From a virus: a stretch of 22,213 nt of DNA. Below are positions 3,001-16,644 of this stretch, one piece after another (within the stretch, counting starts at the first letter, position 1; every line of letters begins with the position of its first letter). Where the stretch lies: positions 1-22,213 of IMG/VR virus record IMGVR_UViG_3300046535_000089; one strand, written 5' to 3'. Made by a program: the position numbers and the translations under genes. The notes under the pieces are model-generated. The model ran no database searches, had not been told where the DNA came from, and saw nothing but the letters and a program-made list of their open reading frames with translations.

Positions 3001-5129
3001 TGGTCGTCAGTTTGGGTATTAGCCATGGCAGCAAGAAACTTCTTGTGCTCCTCGACCAGTGAGTCGTACTTTGCCTTGGCTGCAGCTACTTCCTGCGGAT
3101 TTTTAGCGGCTTTGGCGGCCGCATCCATCAGCGCCGATTCCTTGGCGAAGGTCGCCGCTTCGGCCGCGATATACTCGGCTCGTGCGACCGCGCGGCCGGC
3201 GTAATAGTCATCATCCGACAGCGCGAACTTGGAGTGATACGTCGACAGCATCTTTTCGCGCTCGTCGTAGATAGCCTTCTCGCCATCCAACTGGGTCTTT
3301 GCGAGCGTCAGCGCATCTTGCAGCCTCTGGGAACGGTCATCCTGGCCTTTTTCAGGCGCGGGTGTATGCGCCTTCGTTAGCGCTGCCATGTGCGCGTTGA
3401 CGGCATCCTGACTTAGCAGTGGGCTATCCGGGTTGGCGGCCGCGATCTTGGCCAGGTCCTGACCATACTCCCGGATTGCGACCTGCAGCTCTGTCAAGCC
3501 TTTTTTCTCCAGACGCGCGTCGTCCTGCATAACACGCGAGGCGGCATGCTCAGCCTCGGATTGAGCAAGTACCGCCTTGCCTTGTGCGATCGCATCGGCG
3601 TCCGCCTTGTTCTTGACGATGACGGCCGCCGTCAGATCCTTGACGATAGCCAGGCGTTCCGACTCCTGGACTGCGGTCAGCGCGGACGGATCGCGTCCCT
3701 GTTCCTGGTTTCGGAATGCAGTTGCTGCATCGAAGGACTTGAGCTGAGCGACGTACTTGTCGACCTCGCTACCCGGCGTTGCCTTCGCTCCCCAACTACC
3801 GATCGCATCAACCGCGCCGCCAATTGCTTCCTTAACGGCATTCCAGCCGCGCGACACGTAGCCAAGGTTGTGCGCCATTTCCTCGGCGCGATCCTTCGTC
3901 ACCCTTGCCAGCGTTTCCGTCGCCAAGGCGGAGGCGCCCTTCTGATCGCCCTCTTTTTCGAGGGCGCGGATTTGTTCATAAACCGATTCCGTTAGGAAGT
4001 GATACGTGTCGTCGAGCTTGAGCGCCGCACGCGAAATGGCCTCGGTCGAGCGCATGCTGTTGCCGCTCGTCTGGATTGCCAGGGACTCAAATTCCTTGAT
4101 CGTTGCGCCAATCGACTTGCCTGCGGCGTGCTCCATGGCGACTGCTGCCTCGGAGATCAGCCCAATCTGTTCACTGGTGAACTTGCCTGAGCCAGCGAGT
4201 TCAGTGACGGCCTTCTTTGCCTCCCCAATGCCGCCGCCCGCCTCTACAGCGGAATGTGCAAGCGCATTCAGGTTATCGCTGGTCGTGCCGGCATAGTTGC
4301 CGGTCATGATCAGTGCGTCATTCATCGCCTTCTGCTCGTGGGCGCCCTTGATCATCGCGGCAGCTGTCCCGATAACTGCCGCACCAACAGCGAGAATTGT
4401 CACGCCAGCGGCGCTGAACAGCAGGCTGGCAGCGCCGGTCTGCTCGCCCAGCACCATCATCGACCCGCCGAACTTCTGGAAATTACCCTGGCTCATTTCG
4501 TGCGCCAACACGATCAGTTCGCGGCGCGCGCCCATCGAAGACAGCGAGAAGCCGTCCATGTGCCCGCTCGCGCCTCTCGCACCGGACCCGGTTTCTTCCA
4601 GCTTTTTGATCAGGGGCGCGGCAGCATCGGAGATCCCGAGCTGAGCGGCGCGATACGCCTGCAACTGTGTCGTGCTCATCCCGAGCGTGGCGACCTGATC
4701 TTGCAAGCTCTTCAAGAAGCGATCTGCAGCCTTGGCTGCCTGATCCTCTGCCGCCGCAGCGTCGCGCGCGGCCTTCTCGTCGCGCTGCATGGCGTCGATC
4801 TTTGCGCCAAGTGCTGCTGCCGCCCGCTGCGTGGCAGTGGACATGCCGGCTGCGGCTGCGTTATACCGTTCAATTTCGGCTCGGTTTGCGCCGAACAAGC
4901 TGACTTCGCGCTGCAGATTCGCAAGAAATTTGGCGCTTGCATCGTCTGCGGTTTTGGTAGCCTCCCCGCTGGCGCGCATGATCTTGACCGTATCGTTCAT
5001 CGAGCCATTCATCTGCTCGACTTTCTGTTCAACTCTTGCGCTGGTCTCGGCCAGCGCATCGAGCGCACGCGTACCCTCGACCACGGGGCGGCTGTCCAAT
5101 TCGATGCCGATACTTGCGAAATCCGTCAT
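1..5129 (-). CDS. Tail tape measure protein (partial at C-terminus)
   Basis: The frame is open from ATG at 5129 to the left edge, giving 1,709 codons with no stop. Family role: it sets tail length inside the tube and is ejected during infection. The start follows tandem terminators. Residues about 210-260 resemble the N-terminal region of prophage tape measure proteins (TMP_2-like), with GNFQKFGGSMMVLGEQ and then a hydrophobic segment at about 235-260. The middle (about 350-900) is Ala/Lys/Glu/Gln-rich and probably coiled coil. Further hydrophobic stretches lie at about 962-980 and 1086-1115, suitable for membrane insertion on ejection. From about residue 1648 there is a DUF4214-like module (YHQSLGRAPDAAGLAYW), and a second one begins with YQSLLGRPADAAG as the window ends. 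I checked the frame at several widely spaced points and found no frameshift. The preceding genes are the tail chaperones, as expected for this family. Confidence 0.93.
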   Translation of the reverse strand, partial: MTDFASIGIELDSRPVVEGTRALDALAETSARVEQKVEQMNGSMNDTVKIMRASGEATKTADDASAKFLANLQREVSLFGANRAEIERYNAAAAGMSTATQRAAAALGAKIDAMQRDEKAARDAAAAEDQAAKAADRFLKSLQDQVATLGMSTTQLQAYRAAQLGISDAAAPLIKKLEETGSGARGASGHMDGFSLSSMGARRELIVLAHEMSQGNFQKFGGSMMVLGEQTGAASLLFSAAGVTILAVGAAVIGTAAAMIKGAHEQKAMNDALIMTGNYAGTTSDNLNALAHSAVEAGGGIGEAKKAVTELAGSGKFTSEQIGLISEAAVAMEHAAGKSIGATIKEFESLAIQTSGNSMRSTEAISRAALKLDDTYHFLTESVYEQIRALEKEGDQKGASALATETLARVTKDRAEEMAHNLGYVSRGWNAVKEAIGGAVDAIGSWGAKATPGSEVDKYVAQLKSFDAATAFRNQEQGRDPSALTAVQESERLAIVKDLTAAVIVKNKADADAIAQGKAVLAQSEAEHAASRVMQDDARLEKKGLTELQVAIREYGQDLAKIAAANPDSPLLSQDAVNAHMAALTKAHTPAPEKGQDDRSQRLQDALTLAKTQLDGEKAIYDEREKMLSTYHSKFALSDDDYYAGRAVARAEYIAAEAATFAKESALMDAAAKAAKNPQEVAAAKAKYDSLVEEHKKFLAAMANTQTDDQVGQLATAKAITDASSAATDRYTTELQKQLKVIEDTAGARQRSKSAIEGETAALYAQAVANMKEQVAAPITEQHTQADHDAAVAMLADLEKELGLHQKIAAALQAQEAAEFHKKAADQAIQDWQRAGASIADSLSNAFGTGGKAIGEMFKAYAEGMSGQLRAQKDLAAAKKLSDDNPEKLEAINRAQLQGAQAQLKSYGDMAQAAEGFFQQGSSGYKAMAAASEVLRAAEVGLSLVKGVNAVLTQGEGDPYSAFARMAAMAAIVTGLGVALTGGGGSAPSAAQRQAAQGTGTILGDGNAKSDSISKSIELTAANSSTQINYLSGMLTSLQAIQTNIGSFASQIVQNTNISNPQVGNLAHGYGTTNLGAADMTMTGAEVGSYFGPIGTAVGAVVGYIASKIPVFQNIFTSIMGGKQSVSDSGFTMDATSLGSVLSNGVSAKSYADITTSGGWFGKDKTSVQTTPLGDEANRQFGAVIKSLADSITQASTLLGACGDDFTAKLNSFVVDIGNVSLKGLSGDDQQKALEAVFSKLGDQMAQWVVGGLEPFEKVGEGYLQTLVRVASDYAKLDASLQSIGKTFGAVGIESVGAREGLISLMGGIDNLQSKTADFAQNFLTKGQQLAPVAAYVSQQLGAMNLGWVQTREQFASVVACLDLTTTSGQQTYASLMNLESAFAATHAAIVDTTKSEQEIADERKSLQDKLDALTMSSAQLHDKERATIDASNLALYDRVSALQAEKDAVQAAKDAMQAAKDVASGLMGDVDNAFTVLQNTMKPTTDALTARINAEKALSDAIKSTLSGMKAASTDLTDRMAAQAQIKAALAVAKAGGPLPTADSLKDALSVVSQDASTKFATQADYLKDLYTTKNDLSQLGDLADSSLSVDQKQLDSLNAMLDAAKKQVDLLKGIDTTGLSIAQALAGFQTAITAAKANPVVAATSAISDQYHQSLGRAPDAAGLAYWQQQAASGVPLGTITQSIAMSPEATIQGMYQSLLGRPADAA

Positions 5130-5138
5130 GGTTCGCCC

Positions 5139-5166
5139 AATAAAAAGGGCCCGCCGAAGCGAGCCC
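5139..5166 (-). terminator. Intrinsic terminator, proximal of a tandem pair
   Basis: Read on the minus strand, GGGCTCGC and GCGGGCCC pair as an 8-bp stem with one U-G pair around a UUCG loop, followed by TTTTTATT. It lies immediately upstream of the tape measure start, so that gene may depend on read-through. Confidence 0.85.
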
Positions 5167-5170
5167 TGGA

Positions 5171-5194
5171 AATAAAAATCCCGCCGAAGCGGGA
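5171..5194 (-). terminator. Intrinsic terminator, distal of a tandem pair
   Basis: On the minus strand, TCCCGC-TTCG-GCGGGA is followed by TTTTTATT. It begins about 22 bp after the stop of the exported-protein gene (5217-5627). With the next hairpin it forms a double terminator. Confidence 0.85.
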
Positions 5195-5216
5195 CTGTGA
5201 TGATCTGTTGCTATTG

Positions 5217-5627
5217 CTATTTGGCTACGTCGATTTCACTGTACAGCACATCCTTAACGCATCGGCTCTGCCAGTTCGACTCAACGAAGGAAGTATCATC
5301 CTCCTCGATACCGGACTGGTCTGCCGCGACAATGAAGCGCCGGAAGCCCACGTAGCCGCCCATCTTGTTCTTCGCGTTGATTTCGCCGCAGACCGCACGC
5401 CCCTTAGGCGATAGGATCACATTTCGGAACCGCGCCGATTCTGGATCGTTCAATGCCTCACGGATGGCGTTGGTCCCCACTTCGATCTTCTTGGCCTTCT
5501 CCGCCTCCGCACGCTGCTCATCAGTTTGCTGCGGCATGGGCTGAGGCTTGGCGACATGCTGAACTTTTGGTGCCGCAAGCGCTGAGCTTGCCGCAAGCAG
5601 GCCCAGCAAAATAATCCGCTTCATCAT
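5217..5627 (-). CDS. Small exported protein of unknown function
   Basis: A 136-aa protein with a clear signal peptide: basic MMKR, then a hydrophobic core (IILLGLLAASSALA) and a likely signal peptidase I site before APKVQ. There is no lipobox cysteine. A Gln/Glu/Lys-rich linker follows. The rest holds ALNDPESARFRNV and a VCGEINAKNKMGGY segment. I recall this pattern from small secreted proteins of phages and proteobacteria whose function is unknown. Two cysteines in the mature part (VCGE and SRCV) could form a disulfide in the periplasm. A strong AAGGAGAGG ribosome site precedes two adjacent ATGs, and the second (5624) has the better spacing. The gene sits between the tail chaperones and the tape measure and is followed by two terminators, like an independently expressed extra gene (moron). 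It could also be a tail-linked protein. Confidence 0.8.
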   Translation of the reverse strand: MMKRIILLGLLAASSALAAPKVQHVAKPQPMPQQTDEQRAEAEKAKKIEVGTNAIREALNDPESARFRNVILSPKGRAVCGEINAKNKMGGYVGFRRFIVAADQSGIEEDDTSFVESNWQSRCVKDVLYSEIDVAK

Positions 5628-5674
5628 CCTCTCCTTTTTATTGGAAAGGAAATACTACCTCAAGGAAACCAGAA

Positions 5675-5700
5675 CCGGATGATTTTGCTTAATCCTCCGG
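5675..5700. other. Imperfect inverted repeat spanning the chaperone stop codon
   Basis: On the minus strand CCGGAGGAT and ATCATCCGG form a 9-bp arm pair with one mismatch around an 8-base loop that includes the TAA stop of the downstream chaperone frame. No T-run follows, so it is not a clear terminator. It could be an mRNA 3'-end structure or chance. Confidence 0.35.
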
Positions 5701-6057
5701 GGCTGCTTCCTCCGTTTTGCTGTGGTGCAGCACGAACATGCTATCGAGCCGCATGATCACGTCCAGCTCGTACGGATTGAGCCGGATACCCTCCAACTGC
5801 TGCCAGGTCACGATTTCATCGGATAGCCCGCTGACTCCGAAACCGTTGTTCCTGCGCATCCTATTCATGCGCTGAAACCACGACCAGATGTGGCTCAGCT
5901 CGTACGGGAACGGCAGCGGGACCAGTTGCTCAGGTGTTACGCCGCTGGTCCGCTCAATGACTTCCAGGTGCTCGCGCAGGGTGCAGCCGTCACCCTGCAG
6001 CTCAGACAGCTCTAGTTGCTGTCGGGCGTAGTCGCAGAGTTGGTCGGCAAGGCCGGC
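5689..6057 (-). CDS. Tail assembly chaperone, frameshifted downstream part (gpT-like)
   Basis: This frame has no convincing start of its own. It is open from the slippery site at 6057 to TAA at 5689-5691 and is reached by a -1 slip from the upstream chaperone, which would add about 122 residues to 147 and give a fusion of about 269 aa. The segment holds HIWSWFQRMNR and IRLNPYELDVIMRLDS, which resemble gpT-type tail chaperone extensions such as lambda T. In the family the short form and the rarer fusion together load tail tube subunits onto the tape measure. The position between the tail tube and tape measure genes is exactly where such a pair is expected. I inferred the product from layout, frame relation and motif style. 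I could not confirm a downstream stimulatory structure. Confidence 0.8.
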   Translation of the reverse strand, partial: AGLADQLCDYARQQLELSELQGDGCTLREHLEVIERTSGVTPEQLVPLPFPYELSHIWSWFQRMNRMRRNNGFGVSGLSDEIVTWQQLEGIRLNPYELDVIMRLDSMFVLHHSKTEEAAPED

Positions 6058-6497
6058 AAAAAATTGTTGTCCTCGGCCATTGCGCCCAGGATCTTTTCGA
6101 CCCAGGTCTGCTTCTGCTTCAGGATGACCGGGACCATCGCGGCATCGAACGGGCGCGGAACCTGGTTGCCGTCTGCGTCCTTCTTCGTCCAGCCAAACCA
6201 GTCGACCACGACGGCAGCGGCGCGCGCGACGTTCTGGCCGTCCACGATGTCGATGACCTTGGCGGCGCCGTCGTCGGTCTTCACGTCGATGGCCTTGTTA
6301 CGCTTGGCCGCCGCTTTCTGGTTCTCGATGCGCACGGCGCGCTCGGCGGCGCGGGCCTGGTCGCTGTTGCGGCTGACGATGCGGAAGCCGGAGACCGGGT
6401 TGCCGTCCTCGTCGGAGATTACGGCGACATCGAAGGTGATTGGCTTGTCGGCGTCAGCCAGAATTGCGTCGAGATCGTATGCGTTCGTTTGGGTCAT
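6012..6497 (-). CDS. Tail assembly chaperone (gpG-like)
   Basis: A 161-aa protein starting MTQTNAYDL. I chose the ATG at 6497 because AAAGG lies at good spacing before it. An in-frame ATG at 6512 would add five residues but has a poor ribosome site. The protein is acidic and charged, with an N-terminal beta-like part (PITFDVAVISDEDGN), a helical Lys/Arg/Ala-rich stretch, and WFGWTKKDADGN followed by VPVILKQKQTWVEKILGAMAEDNNF near the end. This matches the usual size and place of the first tail chaperone in siphoviruses. Its last codons overlap the slippery TTTTTTG, where a minority of ribosomes should move into the -1 frame. Most should end at TAG (6012). Function is assigned mainly from position and the frameshift architecture. 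Confidence 0.8.
   Translation of the reverse strand: MTQTNAYDLDAILADADKPITFDVAVISDEDGNPVSGFRIVSRNSDQARAAERAVRIENQKAAAKRNKAIDVKTDDGAAKVIDIVDGQNVARAAAVVVDWFGWTKKDADGNQVPRPFDAAMVPVILKQKQTWVEKILGAMAEDNNFLPALPTNSATTPDSN
6057..6063 (-). promoter_or_regulatory. Predicted -1 programmed ribosomal frameshift site
   Basis: On the minus strand the heptamer T TTT TTG is in the X XXY YYZ arrangement relative to the upstream chaperone frame (codons AAT TTT TTG). A one-base backward slip makes GCC the next codon and enters the 122-codon downstream frame. It lies 14 codons before the zero-frame stop, as in other tail chaperone pairs. Confidence 0.85.
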
Positions 6498-6649: not shown

Positions 6650-7438
6650 CTAGGTGACGTGTACCCAGGCTGTGCGCTTGATTACACGACTTATTAGGCC
6701 CTCGCTTACGCCGTATTCTTCGGACAGTGCGCGTATTGACTTGGCGCTTGATCGAATGCGCTGGACCTTTTCGTCATCCAGCTTTGCAAGGGGGTGAGCC
6801 GTGCCTTTTACCCGGTTCCCATTGTCGATCCGCCCATTTGAGTAGGCCGCCTGCGTCAGGTCTAGGTGCCTCCACTCTTCGTTCCTGTGTATCAGGCTAA
6901 CTTGACTCTGCGATATTCCATAGTCTTGCGCAATCACCCACTGCGGGCGCTTATCAAGACGTATTGCGGCGACTTGCGCCTCCGTGAGCTTCGTGCTTGA
7001 AAAGTCCGAGCCTTTCGATTGCCTATTCTTGCTCAGTTTGTCCAGCATGTTGTCCGCGTTGGTCCCGATGAACAAGTGGTCTGGATTGATGCATGCAGGG
7101 GTATCACAACGATGGCACACATGCATGCCGTCAGGTATTGCTCCATGAGCGACTGCGTAAGCCAATCGGTGCGCCAAGAATACCTTCCCGTCCACTCCAA
7201 GCCTGCCATATCCAGACTTGTTCGTACTTGCGGTCCACAGCCAGCATCCCGTGGCGGCATCTACTTTGGAGAAGTGTTCCAGACGCTGACTTAGGGTCAT
7301 GTGTCCGGTGTATAGACTTTCCGAAAAAGACCCCGATTTTCGCGCCTGCTCGTAATGCGTACTGCACAATCCGCGCGCTTGGACCTTCTTGCCGCAGATG
7401 GAGCATTCCTTCGGGTATGGTATTCTTGCATCAGCCAT
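6650..7438 (-). CDS. HNH homing endonuclease
   Basis: A 262-aa protein. Residues 12-28 form a likely zinc finger (CSIC...GLCSTH, giving C12, C15, C25, H28). Residues 65-140 are an HNH_3-type nuclease: CWLW, a TNKSGYGRL strand, AHRLAYA, then MHVCHRCDTPACINPDHL with likely catalytic H109, N118 and H121, and GTNADNM. The C-terminal half has two helix-turn-helix-like repeats, one with WVIAQDYGISQSQVS at about 167-181 and one with IRALSEEYGVSEGLIS at about 235-250. These are probably the DNA-binding part. Family role: it cuts an allele lacking the gene so that repair copies the gene in. It is inserted between the tail tube and tail chaperone genes. Its first codons and leader are a perfect copy of those of the GIY-YIG gene at 14356-15378. 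A terminator follows it. Confidence 0.92.
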   Translation of the reverse strand: MADARIPYPKECSICGKKVQARGLCSTHYEQARKSGSFSESLYTGHMTLSQRLEHFSKVDAATGCWLWTASTNKSGYGRLGVDGKVFLAHRLAYAVAHGAIPDGMHVCHRCDTPACINPDHLFIGTNADNMLDKLSKNRQSKGSDFSSTKLTEAQVAAIRLDKRPQWVIAQDYGISQSQVSLIHRNEEWRHLDLTQAAYSNGRIDNGNRVKGTAHPLAKLDDEKVQRIRSSAKSIRALSEEYGVSEGLISRVIKRTAWVHVT

Positions 7439-7517
7439 GATGACCTCTCAGACAGGTTGTTTGGTTAGAGCTCGCTTCGTGTTGGTAGCACTTAGCGGGC
7501 TCGTCTATTTTACGCCT
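7431..7517 (-). repeat. 87-bp perfect direct repeat, copy 1 (HNH leader)
   Basis: Identical over 87 bp to 15371-15457. On the minus strand it begins AGGCGTAAAATAG, 5 bp past the tail tube stop, and ends within the third codon of the endonuclease (ATGGCTGA). It carries a GAGAGG ribosome site, a TAAAAT -10-like hexamer near its 5' end without a matching -35, and an internal hairpin. The flanks differ at once on both sides (7430 against 15370, 7518 against 15458). Confidence 0.95.
7468..7502 (-). promoter_or_regulatory. Leader hairpin upstream of the HNH endonuclease
   Basis: Within the 87-bp repeat, GAGCCCGC pairs with GCGAGCTC (7 of 8 positions), with an inner GTG/CAC pairing across CTACCAA. 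The hairpin ends about 30 bases before the ATG, so it does not mask the ribosome site. It may protect or attenuate the message. Confidence 0.45.
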
Positions 7518-14105: not shown

Positions 14106-14312
14106 CTATATATCAGGTTTGCTGCTCTTGATCACAAAGTGCGCCGGTACTTCGCCTTGCGCTACCAACTGGACGTCCGTAACCGCCTGCCCATCAGGCA
14201 ACTTGATCTGCGCGCCGCCCATGCCCAGCGCCTTGATGCGCGTCAGCTTGGCCGCGAGGTCATCGACGGTCAGCGGTGGGTCGGTCAGCAGGTCTTTCGG
14301 ATTGAAGGTCAT
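14106..14312 (-). CDS. Small hypothetical protein, 68 aa
   Basis: Starts MTFNPKDLLTDPPLTVDDLAAKL. It has an N-terminal helix (TVDDLAAKLTRIKALGMGG), then strands (AQIKLPDGQAVTDVQLVAQG and VPAHFVIKSSKPDI). There is no signal peptide or membrane segment. I chose ATG 14312 because it lies 14 bp past the apparent native stop of the minor head gene (14327), and the extra upstream residues in this frame would be antisense or remnant sequence. Upstream purines are poor (GACGG). The gene lies between the minor head and scaffold genes. Function is unknown. Confidence 0.65.
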   Translation of the reverse strand: MTFNPKDLLTDPPLTVDDLAAKLTRIKALGMGGAQIKLPDGQAVTDVQLVAQGEVPAHFVIKSSKPDI

Positions 14313-14326
14313 CCGTCGAGTGTACC

Positions 14327-14374
14327 CTACTGCGTGTACTTGGCCTTCAAATCGCTCAACTTGAGGGAGCGGGC
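14327..14374 (-). pseudogene. Displaced remnant of the minor head gene 3' end
   Basis: In the frame starting at 14374 the minus strand reads A-R-S-L-K-L-S-D-L-K-A-K-Y-T-Q then TAG. The intact minor head protein, which ends over 1 kb upstream at 15457, has the C-terminus G-R-P-L-K-L-S-D-L-R-A-K-Y-T-N. Ten of the last 12 residues match and the other two are K/R and Q/N. At DNA level 23 of 36 bases match, so it is not a recent duplication. The segment overlaps the last codons and stop of the GIY-YIG gene in another frame and is preceded in its own frame by TGA, so it is not translated as an extension. It looks like the original end of the head gene, cut off by the endonuclease insertion. Confidence 0.8.
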
Positions 14375-15378
14375 ACCTCAGCGTTACTAGCCTTCGCCAA
14401 CAAGGCTCTTGCAACTCGCTTTTTTGCCGCTGCCGACATCCGAGCCCTCTGCTCAGCGGTCCGCTTCTGGCCGATTCTCTTCGCCGTGGCGCGCTCCACT
14501 GCTTCACGCGGCATCACCCTGCCAATCCGAGGATCAACGTACCCAGGTTGCGCGATAGCTGCTGCATGAGCGGCTGATATCTTCCGCTTGGTCTCTTCGC
14601 TAATGGTCTTGCCAGTGTTTATCGCCGACAGCAGGGCTTTTGTCGTGTCTGGAGTTACGTAACCTTTGCGCGCACGTGATATTTTTTCCGCACGAGCGCT
14701 CCAATCTGAGCGGATTGGCTTGATCCTCCCTGCCTTCACCCATCTTAAATATGTGCTAGAGCCTATCCCTGCTAGACGGCAAATTTCAAGCAGCGGCAGG
14801 GACTCGTCCCTTACCGATTCGAACCTCTTGATCCGCTCGAGAGTTTGCTCCTCGCGCCTAGCGGCGACAGCTAGGGCAGCGGCAGTTTTTGGAGCGCCAG
14901 CCCTAGCCTTTGCTTTTTCCGAGATTCTCTCCCGTGTTTCATCGGAGCAGATTCGCCCCATGAGGGAAGCTGATCTCTTTGCATTTTGCTCTGGTGTTGA
15001 CCCCCTTCCAAGGCGCGCATTTCGCATCTTTAGACGGGACTCTGGTGAGGTTTTTACACCGAGCCTACTGCCGGCTTTGGCACATATGTTGAGCCCGCTC
15101 GGTCCGCACGCGCCAAGCGAATCTATCCAATGTTGTTCGCGTTGCAGCAGTAAGGATTTTTCTGGAACTAGTTCGACAATCTCTAGCGCAAATGCAGCTT
15201 CGCCATATTTGCTCCACGACCTCTGTAATTTCTGCGAGTGATGCTCACCCTTCCGCAGCTCTCGCAAGTGATTTTCCCATCTCTTCTTCAGATTGACGGC
15301 GCTGCCAACGTATATCTTGCCGTTGACCGTATTTCGAATTTGATAGATGCCGGATTGCGCTAGAATAGCGTCAGCCAT
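14356..15378 (-). CDS. GIY-YIG homing endonuclease with NUMOD-type repeats
   Basis: A 340-aa protein. Residues 10-88 form a GIY-YIG nuclease: GIYQIRNTVNG (10-20), KIYVGS (21-26), catalytic-type Arg in KKRWENH (R33), a helix with SWSKYGE, and Glu81 in REQHWID. From about 100 there are several NUMOD3-like DNA-contact repeats (LGVKTSPESRLKMRNARLG, CSDETRERISEKAKA, ISEETKRKISAAHAAA, RTAEQRARMSAAAKKR). A helix-turn-helix-like part (LLEICRLAGIGSSTYLRWVKAGRIK) lies at about 195-220. It is inserted at the 3' end of the minor head gene, behind the same 87-bp leader as the HNH gene. It uses A/T-ending codons more than its neighbours, which suggests transfer. Its stop lies inside the displaced head-gene end. 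It is expected to cut alleles that lack the insertion. Confidence 0.92.
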   Translation of the reverse strand: MADAILAQSGIYQIRNTVNGKIYVGSAVNLKKRWENHLRELRKGEHHSQKLQRSWSKYGEAAFALEIVELVPEKSLLLQREQHWIDSLGACGPSGLNICAKAGSRLGVKTSPESRLKMRNARLGRGSTPEQNAKRSASLMGRICSDETRERISEKAKARAGAPKTAAALAVAARREEQTLERIKRFESVRDESLPLLEICRLAGIGSSTYLRWVKAGRIKPIRSDWSARAEKISRARKGYVTPDTTKALLSAINTGKTISEETKRKISAAHAAAIAQPGYVDPRIGRVMPREAVERATAKRIGQKRTAEQRARMSAAAKKRVARALLAKASNAEVPAPSS

Positions 15379-15457
15379 GATGACCTCTCAGACAGGTTGT
15401 TTGGTTAGAGCTCGCTTCGTGTTGGTAGCACTTAGCGGGCTCGTCTATTTTACGCCT
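15371..15457 (-). repeat. 87-bp perfect direct repeat, copy 2 (GIY-YIG leader)
   Basis: Identical to 7431-7517. On the minus strand it starts at the last base of the minor head TGA stop and ends in the third codon of the endonuclease. It carries the GAGAGG ribosome site, ATG and hairpin. Both proteins start M-A-D-A, but only ATGGCTGA is identical DNA. The third base of codon 3 and all of codon 4 differ in usage (GAT GCA against GAC GCT). Confidence 0.95.
15408..15442 (-). promoter_or_regulatory. Leader hairpin upstream of the GIY-YIG endonuclease
   Basis: Same hairpin as in copy 1: GAGCCCGC with GCGAGCTC (7 of 8 pairs) and an inner GTG/CAC pair. Its identity in two places argues that the leader is kept as a unit. 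Confidence 0.45.
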
Positions 15458-16644
15458 CAGTTCGTGTATTTCGCTCTCAAATCCGAAAGTTTTAGCGGCC
15501 TGCCGGACATATCGACTAAGTCCCTTGGGGTTAATGCTCCGCGCCTGAACAGCTCCGCGCGCCCCGGGCCGAGCACTTCGTTCTGATAGTCCTCGCCCTT
15601 CATCTTCAGGTAGTCTGCAAACGTCGTCTTGGCACTGATCGGGCCGTTTGACGATGCGCGCATACCCGGATCAGGCTCGTCCATGTCGATGCCCATCTCG
15701 CGCAGCGTCTTCATCAGCGCGATTTCGCTCGAGCGACAGTTGAAGTGCCTCGGAACGCCGCCGTTGTACGGCAGATCGTTGCCGTTGATCGGGTTGTAAT
15801 CGTGATCCCAGCAGGCTCCGCTGTAGGCGATGCAGGTCAGGCTGGTATGGCCGTCTAACGTCGATACCTGCATGATGCCGTTAGTGATGTCACGATTCAT
15901 CTCGAAGGTCTTGCGCCGCGCCGCTGCTGCCACCGTGGCCGTACTGGTCTGCACGATCGCCGCGGCGTTCTTCCTCGCCAGCGGCATGATGCCTGGTGGC
16001 CCGACTCCATCAGCAGGCGCCTTCGCTGTCACCTCCTGCCCGACGATGCGCTTGATGATCTGCGCGTTTGTCTCGCCCTGCGCCGCGCCGATGCGGATCT
16101 CGTTGGCGAGCTTGAACTGCGTGTTCTGCGCCTGCCGAAGCCACCAATTCTTTGCCGGTGAGCCCTGGATCAGCGCATCACTCGCCAGCTTATTCAGGTA
16201 GTTCTCGCTCGGCAGTTGCGCGCCCAAGCGGATTTCGATGGACGTCTGCACAGCTTCAGCGCTCGCCTCCGCGCGCAGTTCGGCGATTGCGGCCTTGAGT
16301 TCTGACTGCGCGGGCAGTTCAGCATCGGGTCTTAAATCGACCACTTTGGCCAGCGCATCCTGCACACCCAGCGCTTCGACTTGTGCCACCTCGCCAAGGT
16401 CAAGCTCCGCTTGCGCCTTGCCGTAGTACTTAGCGATCAGTTCGTTCGACTCGCGCAGCAGCGCGTTCTTACCGGCCTTGCCGAGCATCGACAGTTCCGG
16501 AGCATTCGCCAACAGGCTCACGATATCGCGCTGCATCAGCACCAGGGCCGCCATCACGCGCGCCTTTGCCTCGGCTTCGGCGCGGAGCATGTCGACGTGC
16601 TGAGCGAGCAGCAGCTCCATCAGGAACTGTTCAAGGGCGCTCAT
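15457..16644 (-). CDS. Minor head / head morphogenesis protein (Mu F / SPP1 gp7-like)
   Basis: A 395-aa protein. The N-terminal two thirds is helical (MSALEQFLMELLLAQHVDMLRAEAEAKARV, then QAELDLGEVAQVEALGVQDALAKV). At about 235-320 is the conserved morphogenesis region: ARKNAAAIVQTSTATVAAAARR, MQVSTLDGHTSLTCIAYSGACW, then NGNDLPYNGGVPRHFNCRSSEIAL, with its typical Cys and HFNCRS motif. In the family it associates with the portal and is packaged or aids head assembly. The start overlaps the portal stop (ATGA). About the last 20 codons, from GCA TTA ACC CCA AGG, use codons such as TTA, AGG, CTA, AAA and AGA, unlike the GC-ending codons before, and a diverged copy of this C-terminus lies beyond the endonuclease gene (14327-14374). 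The present end is probably replaced sequence. Confidence 0.88.
   Translation of the reverse strand: MSALEQFLMELLLAQHVDMLRAEAEAKARVMAALVLMQRDIVSLLANAPELSMLGKAGKNALLRESNELIAKYYGKAQAELDLGEVAQVEALGVQDALAKVVDLRPDAELPAQSELKAAIAELRAEASAEAVQTSIEIRLGAQLPSENYLNKLASDALIQGSPAKNWWLRQAQNTQFKLANEIRIGAAQGETNAQIIKRIVGQEVTAKAPADGVGPPGIMPLARKNAAAIVQTSTATVAAAARRKTFEMNRDITNGIMQVSTLDGHTSLTCIAYSGACWDHDYNPINGNDLPYNGGVPRHFNCRSSEIALMKTLREMGIDMDEPDPGMRASSNGPISAKTTFADYLKMKGEDYQNEVLGPGRAELFRRGALTPRDLVDMSGRPLKLSDLRAKYTN

Follow-up and report, generated by a model that had tools for sequence, protein, structure and literature searches.

A probable GIY-YIG homing element in the 3' end of a phage minor head gene, with a recoded replacement end and a candidate antisense RNA leader

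The window, a stretch of 22,213 nucleotides from an IMG/VR virus record, probably carries a free-standing GIY-YIG homing element within the 3' end of an essential head gene, an element which has its own recoded tail and a leader that most likely encodes an antisense RNA. Judged from the alignments with relatives, the native gene end was left behind, a foreign end is in use, and the target DNA was changed with the protein conserved. The earlier note on this DNA had proposed that a homing element brought in a recoded or foreign 3' end, so that the host protein stays intact while the DNA of the site is altered. The tails of the relatives support both parts of this proposal: in a codon alignment with the relative L008 the window shows 87% identity over the 400 nt before the tail and 57% over the last 84 nt.

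The invaded gene (15457..16644, minus strand) is a minor head gene of the Mu F-like head morphogenesis type, since its open reading frame, read from 16644 to 15457, matches PHROG 241 (head morphogenesis, 4.1e-81) in a profile search and Phage_Mu_F (3.2e-4) in Pfam. Its product ends in ..SGRPLKLSDLRAKYTN, and the tail in use closes with ..GRPLKLSDLRAKYTN and a stop codon. Behind it, on the same strand, lie a conserved leader of 90 bp (15368..15457), the endonuclease gene (14356..15378) and the abandoned native 3' end of that head gene, here called the relic (14327..14374), of which 14371-14327 translates as RSLKLSDLKAKYTQ followed by a stop; after 14 nt comes a 68-aa gene (14106..14312). The coordinates and the reading given in the earlier note were confirmed here from the sequence. 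Our recount also agrees that the two ends share 10 of their last 12 residues and 23 of 36 bases; over the 45 nt of the relic, stop included, 26 positions are identical to the working tail.

To place these ends among relatives, we used about 40 loci gathered by searches with the minor head protein. In the body of the gene the window is 83% identical to L008 and 72% to both L012 and L013. Along the gene, identity to L008 goes from 89% to 72, 67 and 56% across the last three 36-nt blocks, and the drop in identity to the relatives starts near 15550, not far from the 15540 of the earlier note; the foreign, recoded end was thus assigned to 15457..15552 (minus strand), the left boundary being approximate. 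The gene would hence be a hybrid of a native body and a foreign 3' end. The shift in codon use from about 15540, which had been pointed out earlier, is indeed present (GC3 is 15/28 in the working tail and 289/366 in the remainder of the gene), but it is weak evidence when taken alone, as another 30-codon stretch of the same gene is equally low.

The relic resembles the native tails of relatives without the nuclease better than the working tail does. It matches the L008 tail at 37/45 positions (working tail 25/45), the L013 tail at 36/45 (28/45) and the L012 tail at 33/45 (23/45). As a chance control, all 45-mers on both strands of the window were compared with the nuclease-free native tails; 14371-14327 was the best match among them, with 37/45 as against 30/45 for the next, and we therefore conclude that the relic is not a chance resemblance. 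Empty sites were found in 18 relatives, in which the native tail and its stop are followed by 13-16 nt and the ATG of the 68-aa gene. The check proposed in the earlier note, that nuclease-free relatives should end like 14327-14374 directly before the 68-aa gene, thus came out as expected in L008, L012 and L013; the ends of the empty sites in L010/L011 are slightly different from these three.

Codon alignments of all pairs of relatives point to which of the two ends is the newcomer. In pairs that include a nuclease-bearing allele (the window, L007 or L009), identity in the tail drops by 11-30 points, whereas in pairs of empty alleles the corresponding drop is -14 to +2 points. Since the nuclease-bearing alleles drop in the tail and the empty pairs do not, the working tail is taken as the newcomer and the relic as the vertically inherited end. 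The conserved protein and diverged DNA could also have arisen by duplication of the gene end in place, after which the working copy drifted fast at synonymous sites, no foreign DNA being involved. This we regard as very improbable, because the relic has diverged from L008 in a clock-like manner (82% identity, near the 83% of the whole body), the working tail is only 52-63% identical to every close relative, and its best matches, apart from the tail of the nuclease-bearing L007, lie in the distant clade L016/L017/L018/L026 (31-32/45). Viral contigs were also scanned with a pattern built from the two tails; this found no donor phage with the recoded tail as its native end, and only the same contig group and L007/L034 were matched, L007 being the only other match.

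The gene that follows the leader encodes a protein of 340 aa, read from 15378 to 14356, which matches Pfam GIY-YIG (5.9e-15) and PHROG 314 (homing endonuclease, 4.5e-39) and has NUMOD3 repeats, also matched in Pfam. It adjoins the end of the minor head gene as a separate reading frame with its own start and stop, outside any intron or intein, and its stop codon falls within the relic (..CCCTCAAGTTGA, then GCG), in a frame other than that of the relic reading. A group I intron, which had already been argued against, was rejected: neither a group I intron nor any other Rfam family was matched in the window at E<=1, the stop codon of the host gene precedes the insert, and a duplicated gene end lies behind it. 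Searches of named-phage DNA with the whole locus and with the leader gave no useful match.

The same spot can hold a second kind of cargo. In L005/L006, L014, L024 and L027 it is occupied by a 75-aa ORF that shows no nuclease features and has a native-tail relic behind it; this ORF and the nuclease have their stop codons in one and the same TTGA. Neither this ORF nor the 68-aa gene was assigned to a family in the Pfam/PHROG search. A derivation of the C-terminus of the nuclease (..AEVPAPSS) from the 75-aa ORF was considered and dropped, as the likeness comes largely from both running into the same native relic. As a relic also follows the 75-aa ORF, the scar cannot be ascribed to homing alone and the nuclease is not needed for it; the site thus exchanges cargo. 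Either the nuclease and the 75-aa ORF were swapped at one old insertion, or one break site was used repeatedly.

One order of events would put the 75-aa ORF first: it left the relic and the nuclease later took its place, which would make the relic older than the nuclease. The right junction is common to the nuclease and 75-aa alleles, and the decay AAGGCTGAGCG in the relic of the nuclease allele L039 is shared with the 75-aa alleles L014/L027. We nevertheless find this order rather unlikely: the relic of the window is almost undecayed and includes more of the native tail than the L014 and L024 relics do, and the same data are explained equally well by the reverse order or by repeated use of one break site.

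The 75-aa alleles also bear on whether homing was involved at all. The insert could be an ordinary moron, acquired through homologous recombination at its left edge and an illegitimate join at its right, with the scar as a by-product; a part of this explanation is that a newcomer gene would survive only if it brings a complete end for the head gene. That a gene without nuclease features sits at the same place before the same kind of relic fits such an origin, as do other small ORFs that occupy the site in L008 and L080. We consider moron acquisition unlikely, because tail replacement is strongest in the nuclease-bearing alleles, the tails of L014 and L024 behave almost as native ones, and the pattern recurs with other nucleases, at the 3' end of a portal gene and the 5' end of a baseplate gene. 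We thus retain the homing element as the preferred explanation.

These other loci vary in how much of the pattern they keep. L009 has the same leader and a related nuclease, and its minor head tail departs from close relatives right after ..SGRP; despite this recoded tail, no relic was found behind the nuclease. In L013, which shares its contig with L032, the portal and minor head genes are separated by another GIY-YIG nuclease gene that has this leader too. The last 105 nt of the L013 portal gene are 62-63% identical to L014/L012, with 92-93% in the body (90/88 for the L012-L014 pair), and the nuclease terminates at the native ATGA overlap. At L188 a LEM-3-type GIY-YIG gene presents the mirror image at the 5' end of a baseplate wedge gene: the native start, MRYRTLDANG.., is stranded upstream, with counterparts MRYRKLDADGDY in Burkholderia phage Magia and MRYRKQDANGDY in BgManors32, and the baseplate gene has a new, differently spelled start that overlaps the 3' end of the nuclease gene. 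L030 has an HNH gene with a comparable split. In a blind scan for relics behind 64 leader-borne nucleases, few were clear (the window, L030 and possibly L174), L188 having been recognized by inspection; given so few relics, end replacement appears to be recurrent but not general.

The leader itself is more widespread than the scar. A second copy in the window (7428..7517, minus strand), 99% identical over the 90 bp, lies behind the tail tube gene and precedes an HNH_3 homing endonuclease gene (6650..7438, minus strand; Pfam HNH_3, 4.4e-12). No relic of the tail tube end was found behind this HNH_3 gene, and the idea of a recoded tail tube end before the cassette was rejected, since relatives without the cassette drop equally, as natural variation. 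By exact and degenerate scans we collected 17 leaders under stringent and about 65 under broader conditions. The ORFs behind the legible leaders of the stringent set are endonuclease-like (GIY-YIG, HNH_3, AP2-HNH, CxxC-HNH and EndoVII-like), and in the degenerate set 39 ORFs lie behind leaders with an H1 stem (described below) of >=6 pairs, of which 25 match families of nucleases or NUMOD3 at E<=0.01. In bacterial genomes, however, the small ORFs behind some of the leaders do not encode endonucleases, which argues that the RNA family is wider than the endonucleases. A scan of the order Burkholderiales with the leader model gave matches, mostly weak, in 8 of 399 genomes, and relatives of the nuclease in named virulent Xanthomonas and Pseudomonas phages have no such leader.

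Given its sequence signals, the leader most likely encodes in cis an antisense RNA of the kind of symR, PtaRNA1 and R1162, which would gate the nuclease. The predicted RNA, of about 80 nt (15372..15453, plus strand), is drawn from the fold, a PtaRNA1 match and covariation, and would cover the ribosome-binding site (RBS) and start codon of the endonuclease gene. A predicted -10 box of its promoter, TAGAAT (15361..15366, plus strand), lies in codons 5-6 of the endonuclease gene and keeps a fixed offset among leaders: of 57 leaders, 31 have a -10-like hexamer on the opposite strand at an offset of +12 to +14 from the ATG, and any other offset from 0 to 44 gives 0-2. That the box sits in their first codons would account for unrelated nucleases starting with MAxxIL or similar. 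At the other end, hairpin H1 (GAGCCCGC/GCGAGCTC, 15408..15442), which is followed by GTCTATTTT, resembles a terminator when read on the plus strand. Promoter and terminator signals thus stand opposite the regulated gene, and the candidate RNA spans its RBS and start codon.

Both hairpins are preserved across leaders. For H1 with its inner stem, 94.8% of cells are paired and covariation is 0.365, as compared with 0.093 after shuffling and <=0.063 after sliding, in an alignment that was fitted to the structure; an independent test on three pairs outside the search pattern gave 114/150 against 60 in the swap-null. Hairpin H2 (ACCT/AGGT, 15383..15397) surrounds the Shine-Dalgarno sequence of the endonuclease gene. 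A perfect 4-bp stem at constant spacing to the ATG is present in 35 of 50 leaders, in 22 different sequences (swap-null 4.8, maximum 12), and in 10 of 15 leaders of a smaller set (swap-null 2.6). The antisense strand folds into two hairpins and a U-rich end with a z of -3.7, the mRNA strand with a z of -2.1. The divergent leader L128 matches symR at 51.4 bits (E 3.6e-7, below the gathering cut-off of 61), divergent leaders match R1162 at 51.5 bits (E 3e-6, likewise under its gathering cut-off), and the leader of the window matches PtaRNA1 at 15372-15446 weakly, at 19.6 bits (E 0.053 in a 141-base search, below the cut-off of 47).

Our initial reading of the leader as an mRNA promoter with a hairpin was replaced after these family matches and the -10 test. 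In a similar sense, the leader might be only the 5' UTR of the mRNA, with promoter and RBS hairpin and no antisense RNA, as in the hairpins by which T4 homing endonucleases are regulated (PMC2988022); that H2 encloses the Shine-Dalgarno sequence agrees with this. We think it improbable, however, since a -10 box on the opposite strand is kept within the codons of unrelated proteins, the same strand has a terminator-like hairpin with a T-rich tract and folds better than the mRNA strand, and the leaders resemble three antisense RNA families.

Taken together, the mobile unit would consist of the foreign recoded last ~30 codons with their stop, the leader and the endonuclease gene. It may have entered by recombination on the left in the gene body and on the right inside the native tail; recombination with a borrowed end would leave the head protein intact and the native end as a dead relic of 45 nt. 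By analogy with known homing systems, the endonuclease would cut the native 3' end of a relative that lacks the insertion and is resident or co-infecting, repair of the double-strand break from the filled allele would copy in the recoded end together with the nuclease gene by co-conversion, and the product, no longer cut, would be immune. It is plausible that the native site is cleaved and that the recoded one is immune. As for regulation, the antisense promoter would lie in the first nuclease codons and its terminator hairpin just behind the stop of the head gene. As in known antisense systems, the RNA would hold down translation of the nuclease once a phage or lysogen is established, whereas a naive cell, which does not yet contain the RNA, would permit a burst. 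An integrase was found in 11 of the 13 records of relatives searched; as most carry one, these phages are likely to have a lysogenic state, where repression of this kind would be of consequence.

The closest known counterpart is found in fungal mitochondria, in mobile ORFs (mORFs), whose hallmark is an endonuclease, a foreign gene end and a displaced native end, with C-terminal duplications in Allomyces atp6 and Glomus atp6/atp9/cox2/nad3 (PMC3630166). The minor head site has the corresponding parts: a nuclease ORF, of the GIY-YIG type as in the atp9 case, preceded by a host gene with an in-frame C-terminus that is foreign and recoded, a native C-terminus displaced downstream that is nearer to relatives than the working one, and relatives with empty sites. 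In contrast to mORFs, the element resides in a bacterial virus (the record has terminase, portal and tail genes, and the mitochondrial host is lacking), on a head gene, has a much shorter tail and a leader of its own that probably encodes an antisense RNA, and its nuclease stop lies inside the relic.

We therefore differ from the earlier note, which took T4 SegF as the nearest precedent. With SegF and other free-standing phage nucleases the element shares a free-standing GIY-YIG gene next to an essential gene and an expected spread via double-strand-break repair with co-conversion; free-standing homing with co-conversion and RBS hairpins are both known in phages, but the T4 cases rely on co-converted natural variation, and a displaced duplicate gene end is not described for T4-type intronless homing in that source (PMC2988022). 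Homing endonuclease gene (HEG) islands, and nuclease genes that mark the boundaries of genetic exchange between phages (Barth et al. 2023, PMC10448857), are similar in that homing endonucleases next to essential genes drive exchange; the boundaries there are gene-scale, whereas the swap in the window concerns a gene end. The leader would share with SymE/SymR, PtaRNA1 and plasmid R1162 (RF01809, RF01811, RF00043) a cis-antisense RNA of ~75-80 nt over the RBS and start codon, but the regulated gene here is a homing endonuclease. With the RBS hairpins of T4 (I-TevI, segB, mobE, seg43(25)) it shares a structured 5' region at the RBS of a nuclease, but it is a portable cassette common to unrelated nuclease families and has promoter and terminator signals on the opposite strand. 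In the open-access (PMC) phage literature we found neither displaced gene ends nor homing endonucleases with an antisense RNA gene. Of our findings, the antisense-gated cassette is both more novel and less proven than the end replacement.

In its widest form, our proposal is that homing elements gated by antisense RNA form a broad class in the phages of Proteobacteria, and we hold this about as probable as its opposite. One portable cassette of ~95 bp (antisense RNA gene, RBS and first codons) would be joined to GIY-YIG, HNH_3, HNH/HNH_5, AP2-HNH and EndoVII-like nucleases, some of these elements would invade coding sequences and supply a recoded 3' or 5' substitute, and the RNA would play the part of a type I antitoxin, with the nuclease active chiefly when the element enters a cell that lacks it. 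The close empty and filled alleles at one site make the claims of end replacement and of antisense control directly testable. If the homing reading is right, phages show a route hitherto known from fungal mitochondria, the entry into an essential gene, needing no intron or intein, by means of a recoded replacement end. Essential genes would thus become open to free-standing elements, and the resulting hybrid genes would mimic ordinary recombination. The leader, with its candidate antisense RNA gene built into the start of unrelated nuclease families, may be an answer to how the free-standing endonucleases of temperate phages spare their own host.

At the 3' end of the minor head gene, the spot that holds the GIY-YIG endonuclease in the window is occupied in the related record L005 by a 75-aa ORF of unknown family (MSDKKRLRIVSDGTA.., 1974-2260), with the same relic of the native gene end downstream; records L006, L014, L024 and L027 are arranged likewise, and small cargo ORFs related to this one were found in L008 and L080. 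The minor head gene of L101 has an in-frame stop after SGRPL and that of L099 an early stop, and these stops at the same site represent either broken alleles or sequencing errors. A minor head relative in L025 (812-aa ORF, 4001-6439, + strand) is interrupted by an intein at DSHT|C. The DNA that encodes the intein contains, in a different reading frame, an ORF of 323 aa for a GIY-YIG endonuclease (5031-6002, + strand), and the intein frame is also open across it; the arrangement is either an overlapping-frame homing gene within an intein or a double frameshift.

The leader, a conserved 90-bp stretch preceding the endonuclease genes, has a second, 99% identical copy in the window, with an HNH_3 endonuclease, downstream of the tail tube gene (7517-6650, − strand). 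Several phage records carry two such cassettes, often with unrelated nucleases: L052 (10624 and 8837, − strand), L163 (4508 and 2265, − strand), G019 and the window. The stems of the leader hairpin H1 are fully compensated in the second leader of L052 and in L122 (GAGGCCGGC/GCCGGCCTC, GAGGTCAGC/GCTGACCTC). Putative leader-like antisense RNA genes were also found in bacterial genomes (L126, L128, L129, L131 and L132, near position 1500), and the ORFs behind them are small and do not encode endonucleases. An int-alpA RNA scored above the gathering cut-off in L129, L131 and L188.

In L030 (1-1400, + strand), a leader-borne HNH endonuclease splits an HNH gene, whose old part is truncated and lies upstream, while a recoded full copy lies downstream. 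In L188 (3449-4600, − strand), an endonuclease has taken over the 5' end of the baseplate wedge gene, and the former start, MRYRTLDANG, is stranded upstream; this 5'-end case is the mirror image of the 3'-end finding in the minor head gene.
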